A stretch of 61,139 nt of DNA from Polymorphobacter sp. (GTDB lineage Bacteria; Pseudomonadota; Alphaproteobacteria; Sphingomonadales; Sphingomonadaceae), in contig NZ_JANYGL010000097.1 in the NCBI RefSeq assembly GCF_025362435.1, forward strand, positions 1 through 61,139, in the 5' to 3' direction. Within the stretch, counting starts at the first letter, position 1, and each line of letters opens with the position of its first letter. Under the pieces are notes generated by a model that had not been told where the DNA came from, ran no database searches, and saw only the letters and a list, made by a program, of their open reading frames with translations. This document shows, piece after piece, positions 1,924 to 37,733 of this stretch. Position numbers and translations under genes: made by a program.

Positions 1924-4269
1924 TCACAAGAAATTATACGGGTCGATATCGACCGTGACCCGCACGCTCCCCGGCACCGCGACACCCTCGAGCCACTCCG
2001 CGATGATGCCCTGCAGATCGAGGCTCCGCCGCGCGTGGACGAGCAGGCGCTGGCGGTGTCTCCCCCGCAGCATCGCCAGCGGGGCGGGGGCGGGGCCGAG
2101 GACGGCGAGGCCTTCGGCTTGCGGGGCGCTGCGGCCGAGCGCGCGGGCGGTGGCGGCGACGGCGGCGTCGTCCTCGCCCGAGACGACGATCCCGGCGAGG
2201 CGGCCGAACGGGGGCAGGCCGAGGTCGCGGCGGGCGTCGCTCTCGGCGGCGTAGAATCCCTCGGCATCGTACTCGACGAGCGCGCGCATGATCCGCGCCT
2301 CGGGCTGGTGGGTCTGGAGGAGGACGCGGCCGGGCTTGCTGCCGCGGCCGGCGCGCCCCGACACCTGCGCGATCTGCTGGAAGGTGCGTTCGCCGGCGCG
2401 GAGGTCGCCGCCCGCAAGACCCAAGTCGGCGTCGACCACCCCGACGAGGGTCAGGTCGGGGAAGTGATAGCCCTTGGTGACGAGCTGGGTGCCGATCAGC
2501 AGGTCGACTTCGCGCGCCTCGACGCTGGCGACGAGCGCGGCGGCGCGGGCGGGGGAGAAGATCGTGTCCGACGTCACCAGCGCGACGCGGAGGTCGGGCA
2601 GGATGCGCGCGACCTCCTCGGCGACGCGCTCGACCCCCGGGCCGCAGGGGACGAGGCTGTCGGCGGCACCGCACGCCGGGCACAGCTTGGGCACCGGCAC
2701 GTTGTACCCGCAATGGTGGCACTGGAGGCGCCCGGTCAGCCGGTGTTCGACGAGCCACGCGGTGCATTGCGGGCATTCGATGCGCTCGCCGCAGCTCCGG
2801 CACAACGTCAGCGGGGCATAGCCGCGGCGATTGAGGAACAGCAGCGACTGTTCGCCAGCGACGAAGGTCTCGCGCAGCGCATGGACCAGCGGCGGGCTGA
2901 GCCAGTTCCCGCGCGGCGGCGGGTTGGTCCGCAGGTCGATCGTCTCGACGCGCGGCAGCTGCGCGCCGCCGAAGCGGGTCGGCAGCTTGAGTTCGGTATA
3001 GCGGCCGCGGGCGACCTGGACGCGGGTCTCGATCGCCGGGGTAGCGGTGGCGAGGACGACGGCGATGCCGTCGATCTGGGCGCGCATCACGGCGACGTCG
3101 CGGGCGTGGTACTGGACGCCCTCGTCCTGCTTGAAGCTGCTCTCGTGCGCCTCGTCGACGATGATCAGGCGGAGGTCGGCGTAGGGGAGGAACAGGGCGG
3201 AACGCGCGCCGACGACGACGCGGGCGCTGCCGTTGGCGACGGCGCGCCATGCCCGGCGGCGTTCGGAACCGCGGAGGTCGGAGTGCCACGAGACGGGGGC
3301 GCAGCCGAAGCGCGCGGCGAAGCGGTCGAGCCAGGGGGCGGTGAGGGCGATTTCGGGGACGAGGACGAGGGTTTGGCCGGTGGGGGTGGAGCCGGGGCCC
3401 CCTCCACCACGCCAAGCGGCGCGGTCCCCCTCCCCCGAAGACGGGGGAGGATTAAGGGGGCGGTCCGCCTCGTTGCTTTCTAGATCCTCCCCCGCCTTCG
3501 GGGGAGGGGGACCATGCTCTTGCATGGTGGAGGGGGCCCCGCGCTCGCCCCCCGCCCGCAACGCCGCCGCGATCCCCTCGAAATAGACCTCGGTCTTGCC
3601 CGACCCCGTCACCCCGTCGAGCACGAACGGCGCAAAGTCGTGGAGGGCGACCGCGCGGGCGATGTCCTCCGCCGCGACCGCCTGTTCGTAGCTGAGCAGT
3701 GGCTGGGAGAAGTCGGGATCGGGAACCGGGGGCGGGGTGTCGGGGCTGACCGCGATGGGCACGAGAATCGCCGCCTTGACCATGCCGCGGATCACCCCCT
3801 CCGACACCTCGCCGTGGCGCGCCAGCTCACGCACCGATCCCTGCCGCCCGGCGAGGCGCTCGACCGCGGCGGCGCGCTGGGGGGTGAGCTTGTCGGGGAT
3901 GGCTCCGAGCCGGTATTCGGTCACATCCGCCGCCGCGACGAGCGCCGACGACACCGACAGCGCCATCCGCAGGACTGCCGCCGGGGGGGCCATGTAATAG
4001 GCGCCGGTCCATTCGATCAGGCGGCGCAGCCCGGCGGTCATCGCGGGGACGTCGAAGCGGCGGACGACGGCGCGGAGCTTGGCATCGGGGACCTCGCGCG
4101 CCGCCCAGCGGTCGGCCTCCCAGACCACGCCGACGATCGTCCGCGGCCCGAGCGGGACCTCGACGATGTCGCCATAGCCGAGGTCGAGGTCGTCGGGCAC
4201 CGCGTAATCGAGCGCGCCGAGGCCGTGCTGGAGGACGAGAACACGGACGCGGGGACGGGATGCGGTCAT
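1924..4269 (-). CDS. priA: Primosomal protein N', replication restart helicase PriA
   Basis: PriA reloads the replicative helicase at collapsed forks. The start was set at the ATG at 4267-4269 (MTASRPRVRVLV), where the conserved N-terminal fork-binding domain begins; upstream in-frame sequence is non-conserved. Visible features are Walker A GVTGSGKTEVYF near residue 220, DEAH near 373, and the zinc-binding cysteines CRSCGERIECPQC and CHHCGYNVPVPKLCPACG near 480-540. At 781 residues it is about 50 longer than usual. The excess is a low-complexity Gly/Pro segment between Walker A and LVLVPEIALT, encoded by a palindromic repeat (see 3400-3537). The frame stays open, so the enzyme is probably functional. 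Confidence 0.95.
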   Translation of the reverse strand: MTASRPRVRVLVLQHGLGALDYAVPDDLDLGYGDIVEVPLGPRTIVGVVWEADRWAAREVPDAKLRAVVRRFDVPAMTAGLRRLIEWTGAYYMAPPAAVLRMALSVSSALVAAADVTEYRLGAIPDKLTPQRAAAVERLAGRQGSVRELARHGEVSEGVIRGMVKAAILVPIAVSPDTPPPVPDPDFSQPLLSYEQAVAAEDIARAVALHDFAPFVLDGVTGSGKTEVYFEGIAAALRAGGERGAPSTMQEHGPPPPKAGEDLESNEADRPLNPPPSSGEGDRAAWRGGGGPGSTPTGQTLVLVPEIALTAPWLDRFAARFGCAPVSWHSDLRGSERRRAWRAVANGSARVVVGARSALFLPYADLRLIIVDEAHESSFKQDEGVQYHARDVAVMRAQIDGIAVVLATATPAIETRVQVARGRYTELKLPTRFGGAQLPRVETIDLRTNPPPRGNWLSPPLVHALRETFVAGEQSLLFLNRRGYAPLTLCRSCGERIECPQCTAWLVEHRLTGRLQCHHCGYNVPVPKLCPACGAADSLVPCGPGVERVAEEVARILPDLRVALVTSDTIFSPARAAALVASVEAREVDLLIGTQLVTKGYHFPDLTLVGVVDADLGLAGGDLRAGERTFQQIAQVSGRAGRGSKPGRVLLQTHQPEARIMRALVEYDAEGFYAAESDARRDLGLPPFGRLAGIVVSGEDDAAVAATARALGRSAPQAEGLAVLGPAPAPLAMLRGRHRQRLLVHARRSLDLQGIIAEWLEGVAVPGSVRVTVDIDPYNFL
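3400..3537. repeat. Family-B inverted repeat inserted in frame in priA
   Basis: Two inverted copies of a unit of about 54 bases (starting CCTCCACCA, containing GGTCCCCCTC and CCGAAG-CGGGGGAGGAT) flank a short spacer. The same unit occurs as an inverted pair at 37583-37733. The segment is translated within PriA as a linker of roughly 46 residues rich in Pro, Gly and Ser, placed in the loop between the Walker A helix and the next beta strand. Confidence 0.9.
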
Positions 4270-4421
4270 CACCCCCGAGATAGGGCCGGGGACGAATCGC
4301 CGCCACCCCGCGCCCGCGACGAACGCGGGGCTATGGCGGCGAGCGCCCACTGGCTAGGGTGCCGCAGCGCGATTCGGCCGGCGATCGCGCGGCGCTCCAT
4401 GACCGGCGGGGAGCCTGAACC

Positions 4422-5435: not shown

Positions 5436-5447
5436 GCTTGAAGATTG

Positions 5448-5519
5448 TCATCCCCGCGCAGGCGGGGAGCCAATGTCACCGGTGCCGGTAACTTTGGCTC
5501 CCCGCCTTCGCGGGGATGA
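5448..5519. repeat. Family-A inverted repeat overlapping the xerC start
   Basis: The left arm (TCATCCCCGCGCAGGCGGGG then AGCCAA) and right arm (TTGGCTCCCCGCCTTCGCGG then GGATGA) are inverted copies separated by about 20 bases. The ATG used for xerC (5473) lies at the end of the left arm, and a GGGGAG motif inside the arm is three bases before it. If transcribed, the arms would fold into a stable stem that hides this ribosome-binding site. Confidence 0.85.
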
Positions 5520-37079: not shown

Positions 37080-37586
37080 ATGGCCAGCGTTCCCGAACTC
37101 GCCTCCCCCTCTGAACTCGCACCGGTTGCATCGACCGCGCAGGACGTTGCGCGCGGCGTGTCGCGGTTACTATGGCACGCCGGCATCGCTCCGCTGACCG
37201 AGGTGCCGCTCGGCAACGGCAGGCGCGCCGACGTCGTCGGGATCGGCAGCGACGGGCTGATCACGCTGGTCGAGATCAAGGTCGCGCTCGGCGACCTCCG
37301 CGGCGACGGCAAGTGGCCCGAATACCTCGATTATTGCGACCGCTATTACTGGGCAGTGCCGCCTGGGTTTCCGCTCGATGATTTCGACAGCGCGTGGTTC
37401 CAGCCGGAGCGCGCCGGGCTGATCATCGCCGACCGCTGGGACGCCGCGATCGTTCGCCCGGCGGCGTGGGTCAAGCTGAGCGGGGCGCGGCGCAAGGCCG
37501 AGACGCTACGCTTCGGGCGGAGGGCGGCGCAGCGGCTGTTGTGGCTCGGGGACCCGGGGGCGAACGAGGGGTTGCGGCTGCCTTAA
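37080..37586 (+). CDS. mmcB: MmcB-type DNA repair protein
   Basis: A 168-residue protein. VSRLLWHAGIAPLTEVPL, then GRRADVVGIGSDGLITLVEIKV and DGKWPEYLDYCDRYYW match MmcB, a restriction-endonuclease-fold protein needed for mitomycin C resistance in Caulobacter. The VEIK motif fits the nuclease-fold core. The LexA box upstream fits SOS control. The TAA stop lies in the first bases of a palindromic repeat. Confidence 0.9.
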   Translation: MASVPELASPSELAPVASTAQDVARGVSRLLWHAGIAPLTEVPLGNGRRADVVGIGSDGLITLVEIKVALGDLRGDGKWPEYLDYCDRYYWAVPPGFPLDDFDSAWFQPERAGLIIADRWDAAIVRPAAWVKLSGARRKAETLRFGRRAAQRLLWLGDPGANEGLRLP

Positions 37587-37733
37587 TCCTCCCCGTCTTC
37601 GGGGAGGGGGACCGCGCGCTTCTTGGTGCATGGTGGAGGGGCAGCGCGACAAACTCCGCCTGCTGAGTCCGCTCGACCGCCCCTCCACCATGCAAGGTCA
37701 TGGTCCCCCTCTCCGAAGGCGGGGAGGATTTAG
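37583..37733. repeat. Family-B inverted repeat between mmcB and regA
   Basis: Left unit (TTAATCCTCC to GCATGGTGGAGGGG) and right unit (CCCCTCCACCATGCAAGG to GGAGGATTTA) are inverted copies around a spacer of about 40 bases. They are near-identical to the units inside priA (3400-3537), but the two units face the opposite way relative to each other. The mmcB TAA is part of the left unit. Confidence 0.9.

Follow-up and report, generated by a model that had tools for sequence, protein, structure and literature searches.

How does a palindromic repeat come to lie in frame within the gene of a replication restart helicase, and what keeps it there? The question is raised by priA in a Polymorphobacter genome (hereafter G000), within a window of 61,139 nucleotides – the whole stretch of DNA that was analysed. 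The original prediction held that a mobile-looking inverted repeat is translated here as a linker within the helicase core.

An in-frame inverted repeat within priA

The gene is identified as priA by Pfam matches (PriA_3primeBD, DEAD, Zn_ribbon_PriA, PriA_C) and NCBIfam matches (TIGR00595, NF004070). Its open reading frame spans 4350-1924 on the minus strand, open from a GTG at 4350. Relative to homologues without the insert, it holds 57 extra codons, the exact ends of which vary with the alignment. The features of the locus, including the GVTGSGKT motif that we take to be Walker A, are as follows:

1924-4269, minus strand: priA coding sequence, replication restart helicase PriA, 781 amino acids from the ATG at 4269 (list of open reading frames)
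3592-3615, minus strand: Walker A motif GVTGSGKT, PriA residues 219-226, preceding the insert (sequence and alignment)
about 3379-3549, minus strand: the extra 57 codons, PriA residues 241-297 (alignment with G003, G002 and G005; codon alignment with G001)
3480-3534, minus strand: repeat unit 2, inverted (covariance model R1, 73.8 bits)
3457-3479, no strand: spacer, flanked by the ATTTAG-type ends of units 1 and 2 (model match coordinates)
3400-3456, plus strand: repeat unit 1, CCCTCC...GGATTAAG (covariance model R1, 77.5 bits)

The predicted inverted repeat proved real. Within priA, 3382-3552 is a strong inverted repeat whose inner arms (3423-3452 and 3484-3513) are 97% complementary and whose outer arms (3382-3412 and 3522-3552) are 81% complementary. 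The fold of 3392-3545 far exceeds that of dinucleotide shuffles, with a z of -10.3 as DNA and of -12.9 as RNA of the priA strand; 0 of 200 shuffles folded equally well. As had been claimed, the priA frame stays open across the inverted repeat – though frames that run open through a copy are by no means rare: across the 51 repeat copies scored below, 133 of 306 (43%) do so. The linker sits where it had been placed, after the Walker A helix and before the next strand (alignment and predicted model), but comprises 57 residues rather than about 46. Candidate tryptic peptides of the insert, chosen by eye, are GAPSTMQEHGPPPPK and AGEDLESNEADRPLNPPPSSGEGDR.

A dispersed family of paired, two-hairpin units

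A BLAST search of 3380-3560 against its own genome returned at least 133 rows (both strands counted), the best match elsewhere having an E value of 9.4e-35. We built covariance model R1 from 30 of 36 extracted units and, scoring 150 candidates per genome, found at least 105 units in G000 and at least 30 in the same-genus genome G001. The supposed dispersal of the repeat through the genome is thereby borne out. When the filters were tightened and 28 candidates scored per genome, R1 matches were found in 97 of 199 family genomes. Each unit is about 55 nt long with two hairpins and the consensus CCCTCC...GGATTTAG, and copies consist of inverted unit pairs.

The commonest dimer order is minus-then-plus, with CCCCTCC ends inside and ATTTAG ends outside. 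The copies in priA and bchD (C142:9212-9328) and two more on C165 are inside-out (plus-then-minus). Genes hold an excess of inside-out copies: 2 of 4 lie within genes, compared with 1 of 47 for the usual order (p 0.014), a pattern spotted after the fact.

The window holds another copy of this repeat family, in the usual arrangement:

37582-37640, minus strand: copy 2, unit 1, CCCCTCC ends inside (R1, 70.5 bits)
37681-37733, plus strand: copy 2, unit 2 (R1, 73.6 bits)

This copy had been called near-identical to the one in priA. Its units are 86% and 89% identical to the priA units over about 55-60 nt, and its minus-then-plus order is the opposite of that in priA, so that the claim does not stand. 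By eye, the copy (37582-37733) provides the stop codon of the upstream gene, a TAA at 37584-37586. At the same site G001 lacks the repeat and has instead a GTCATCCCCGC hairpin, whose arms measure 11 bp and which is 95% like its own bchD insert over 20 nt.

Pairing within the units covaries. Across 103 units we counted 80 double-change cells against 24.6 after shuffling, using an alignment fitted to the family's own structure, and 98.2% of modelled pairs are paired. We relied on this count because a simple, gapless stem-length control failed to tell real halves from mixed ones (for hairpin 2, 4.4 pairs compared with 4.1); we think that a conserved A/C mismatch stops the gapless count. The evidence supports a true repeat family with covarying hairpins and refutes chance GC-rich low complexity.

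Rfam gave eight matches at E values up to 1, every one under its gathering score. The best were eukaryotic microRNA models (E 8e-9 and 4e-8), which we took as resemblance among GC-rich hairpins. A plasmid collection yielded two partial matches, on Sphingomonas parapaucimobilis plasmids (79.7% identity across 50% of the query in one, 84.6% across 43% in the other). Among the best-ranked open-licence literature matches, represented mostly by titles and the starts of abstracts, we found no account of the R1 family. Nine G000 contigs (C15, C25, C49, C71, C94, C96, C131, C135 and C147) terminate inside the repeat or at most about 120 bases from it; the repeat thus probably disrupts the assembly, and more copies probably exist than were counted.

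Two genomes share the priA insert

The insert is present in G001, whose PriA is 96% identical, and the priA spacers of the two genomes are nearly identical (2 of 25 positions differ). Three other same-genus genomes (G002, G003 and G005) encode PriA without the insert, and G004 gave no proper PriA match. The short form was found at the loci of all 16 named relatives, these three among them. Across the family, 245 of 249 genomes gave a PriA match and, among the matches listed, only those of G000 and G001 begin at the insert; this reading leaves aside five genomes with two matches (G012, G043, G101, G155 and G218). The comparison that the original prediction had called for therefore favours it: relatives have the short form, with no conserved PriA linker of the insert's length. 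Used as a query, the insert peptide gave any match in 4 of 199 genomes (G000, G001, G055 and G070). Leaving the G055 and G070 matches aside, it revealed no further decorated protein in the 199.

The PriA loop looks unconstrained and unstructured

We compared the insert between G000 and G001 over 55 codons. Changes fell at 3.0 of 42.8 synonymous and 9.0 of 122.2 nonsynonymous sites, a dN/dS of 1.06 that is based on just 12 changes in one genome pair. The flanks of the gene have a dN/dS of 0.13 on the N-terminal and 0.09 on the C-terminal side, with a dS of about 0.2. The nonsynonymous excess in the insert has a p of 0.002; its synonymous deficit is not significant (p 0.09).

In a predicted PriA model built with 16 sequences, residues 242-295 have a pLDDT below 50 (ten-residue means of 25-36 over 241-290), consistent with the suggestion that the loop is disordered. 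The low-confidence stretch is flanked by a predicted helix (225-238) and strand (299-303), and the nine best Foldseek matches of the model are solved PriA structures. Together, the substitution ratio, the low pLDDT and the Foldseek matches suggest that the loop is without sign of protein-level constraint, that it is unstructured and that the PriA core is intact.

Units change less than spacers

Nine dimers common to G000 and G001 could be compared position by position (9 of 13 aligned pairs, excluding four partial or deleted pairs and setting gap columns aside). Their units differ at 64 of 949 aligned positions and their spacers at 77 of 341 (p 4e-14), with 590 of 4805 positions differing in the flanks. 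Units differ less than the spacer in all nine dimers, coding and intergenic. For priA alone the contrast is small: 5 of 110 positions in the units, 2 of 25 in the spacer and 44 of 574 in the flanks. By our reading, the subtype is equal in five of the shared pairs and different in four (L118/L105, L126/L089, L124/L117 and L130/L081). Such differences point to copies converting one another or to more than one insertion at a site. We infer that units are held alike at the DNA level, by conversion between copies or by hairpin-templated correction.

Repeat copies in other genes

We scored the flanks of repeat copies for coding frame, covering 17 copies in G001 and 51 of about 59 in G000, where the eight excluded copies lie mostly at contig ends; the score was trained on 22 window open reading frames, including priA with its insert. 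Most copies lie outside genes. The genome-wide count of in-gene copies, which had been proposed as a check, came to three of the 51 scored in G000: priA, bchD and the gene for pyruvate dehydrogenase E2. All three inserts are in frame and stop-free. In G001, copies lie in frame within the conserved genes priA and pyruvate dehydrogenase E2; the E2 copy, common to both genomes (L110:2468-2636 and L127:2517-2702), occupies the linker between the lipoyl and E3-binding domains.

Four other candidates were judged not to be in-gene copies. C52:9302 lies in an upstream extension of a RimO-like open reading frame, C148:3956 in a 90-residue open reading frame, and C23:13829 and C119:9709 in open reading frames unlike a conserved protein across the repeat. 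At L105:1144-2685, a copy directly upstream of a RimO-like gene lengthens its open reading frame; the gene itself probably starts only after the repeat. In G001 the DNA upstream of rimO is different and GC-rich, and we found no palindrome in it.

On C165 (L083:2620-2730), an inside-out copy directly precedes a gene whose start presumably resembles FlgI, and it may overlap the signal peptide region of this FlgI-like gene. The C165:1866 site has no copy in G001. Conversely, at the site of the G001 copy at 1983176, G000 has another, unmodelled inverted sequence.

The BchD linker

A side finding concerns bchD, where the G000 copy (C142:9212-9328, L084:2513-2629) lies in frame. We found BchD in 37 of 199 genomes, aligned 30 of the proteins and read 12 of the genes at the DNA level. 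Judged by eye and by fold, without shuffles, six of the 12 hold long palindromes (G000, G001, G002, G033, G160 and G006) and one a partial palindrome (G099); the other five have none. The remaining 18 proteins, read as protein only, have shorter linkers. The palindromes sit in frame at one position of the linker that joins the AAA core to the lid (further loci L150, L152, L181, L188 and L189). In a model of G000 BchD of lower quality (mean pLDDT 69), residues 197-231, before the lid helices, have a pLDDT below 50.

The elements differ in kind. At the place of the G000 element, G001 has a GTCA...TGAC dimer that is CGTC/TGTC-like by our own reading, and G160 and G006 have a CCCGAGCGAAGTCGAGGGAC-type repeat. 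Exact arms measure 20 bp in G001, 22 bp in G160 and 29 bp in G033. The G002 gene holds a long imperfect inverted repeat, with inverted matches in pieces of 15-16 bp within a longer imperfect fold; the exact-arm count found no arms of 10 bp or more there. With both strands counted, the G001 insert recurs in 80 rows in G001, 66 in G000 and none in G033. The G160 insert recurs in 45 rows in G160, 88 in G006 (one of them inside its bchD) and 9 in G099. The window itself has two matches to the GTCA...TGAC-type repeat (5440-5519 and 1779-1855), one of them about 70 bp past the priA stop codon.

It appears that bchD took in several different repeats at one spot. As a precedent, different REPs are described at about the same recB site in two Xanthomonas species in PMC3733652; repeats in BchD were not described among the best-ranked open-licence literature matches, represented mostly by titles and abstract starts. 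We tentatively raise the idea, itself rather doubtful, that certain sphingomonad protein loops are recurrent homes for unrelated palindromes that replace or succeed one another with the frame kept. The window site at 37.6 kb, with the GTCATCCCCGC hairpin in G001 and the present element in G000, would be a parallel. If the idea is true, and new palindromes insert into old ones or are exchanged for them, these places would be real hotspots rather than merely tolerant sites. The BchD linker offers a test of whether one palindrome is the target of another or both simply survive in tolerant loops, and this side finding is more unusual than the priA insertion.

Origin and persistence of the priA insert

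We consider it highly probable that the priA insert is an in-frame insertion of a REP/REPIN-like repeat that survives in a tolerant PriA loop without a specific task. We propose that a dispersed hairpin-forming repeat entered priA before the lineages of G000 and G001 diverged, hitting a turn where PriA tolerates extra residues. Its length and frame would have left priA open, and translation would turn it into an unstructured loop of some 57 residues that serves no specific purpose. The insert would have persisted since the loop it hit is tolerant and PriA still works. The loop is presumably translated rather than skipped and the insert-bearing PriA presumably active, and the predicted model suggests that the insert is probably a floppy loop.

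A loop that had been domesticated, and now serves PriA in regulation or partner binding, could account for an insert that is in frame in two genomes although their priA flanks differ by a dS of about 0.2. We regard this as quite unlikely, given a dN/dS of about 1 against 0.09-0.13 in the flanks, the predicted disorder, and the absence of the insert from the other relatives read and among the matches listed family-wide. A role in cis, with the hairpin acting on DNA or mRNA within priA (pausing, mRNA processing or protein binding) and its units preserved on that account, would fit the slower change of units than spacers over the nine shared copies, the covarying pairing and the very stable fold. 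Yet intergenic copies have the same unit/spacer pattern, which therefore belongs to the repeat family and not to priA; the difference is small for priA alone, and only two of the priA genes read carry the insert. A cis role thus strikes us as unlikely.

A long stable hairpin within a conserved gene also recalls palindromes that are bypassed in translation or cut from the mRNA, as mentioned in PMC6649704 for mitochondrial elements of the yeast Magnusiomyces. Skipping would need no frame, yet the priA, bchD and E2 inserts are all in frame and stop-free – an argument to be scaled by the 43% of cases in which a given frame is open – and we hold it to be very improbable. There is next to no chance that the insert arose in assembly, or that it is an old linker which other lineages have lost. 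G000 is a draft of 165 contigs, several of which end in the repeat, but the three-contig genome G001 carries the same insert, and the short form is common to close and distant relatives.

Comparison with known repeat systems

A REPIN consists of two inverted REPs that form one hairpin and goes with a RAYT transposase. The present family is similar in that an inverted pair of palindromic units folds into one long hairpin. It differs in its association with a transposase: PF01797 (Y1, the RAYT-type transposase) gave no matches in G000, G001, G002 or G005, where the G000 search was of a 97% complete draft and found the control in 5 of 14. Elsewhere in the family, PF01797 matches occur in 31 of 199 genomes, and R1 was found in 22 of these 31 against 75 of the 168 others (p 0.010). 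Within about 3 kb on each side of Y1 genes of relatives (19 of 35 rows, the genes judged RAYTs by length and a weak score), an R1 match was found in 1 of 19 regions. We set RAYT aside as the likely mobiliser, though the weak co-occurrence speaks for it. MITEs are marked by terminal inverted repeats with a target-site duplication and a related transposase. In the present family inverted ends are present; the other genome's site often holds other or rearranged DNA, with no clean empty/filled pair, and comparison of G000 and G001 sites gave no clean target-site duplication.

The original prediction drew a parallel with the palindromic elements of Rickettsia (RPEs), described in PMC2229807 as palindromic repeats of 105-146 bp fused in frame into conserved protein genes. 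The parallel holds for behaviour: a dispersed palindrome lies in frame in a conserved gene, with the short form in relatives. Compared by description, the systems differ in host order and in that the present elements are two-hairpin inverted unit pairs and mostly non-genic. The implied novelty outside Rickettsia is not supported. REPs inside genes of many bacteria, including S. alaskensis and E. lithoralis (as spelled there) and many replication and repair genes, are reported in PMC3733652, whose main text has no mention of PriA and whose consulted passages lack BchD and the E2 gene. Palindromes in coding sequence are also mentioned for nematomorph mitochondria in PMC6649704. In-gene palindromic repeats are thus already published, sphingomonads included, and the priA case adds to a known kind.

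A close likeness is also to the GTAG and CGTC superfamilies of REPs, which PMC3733652 describes as high-copy hairpins that occur for the most part between genes, as head-head or tail-tail inverted dimers, with some in-frame genic copies. Set against that description, the present unit is about twice as long, has two hairpins and, in a consensus read by eye, lacks the GTAG/CGTC terminal tag at both ends; the family appears to lie outside these classes. A sphingomonad replication restart helicase is added to the proteins that carry selfish palindromes, and comparing filled, short and differently filled sites within one genus can tell apart the forces that act on such inserts at the protein level and at the DNA level.
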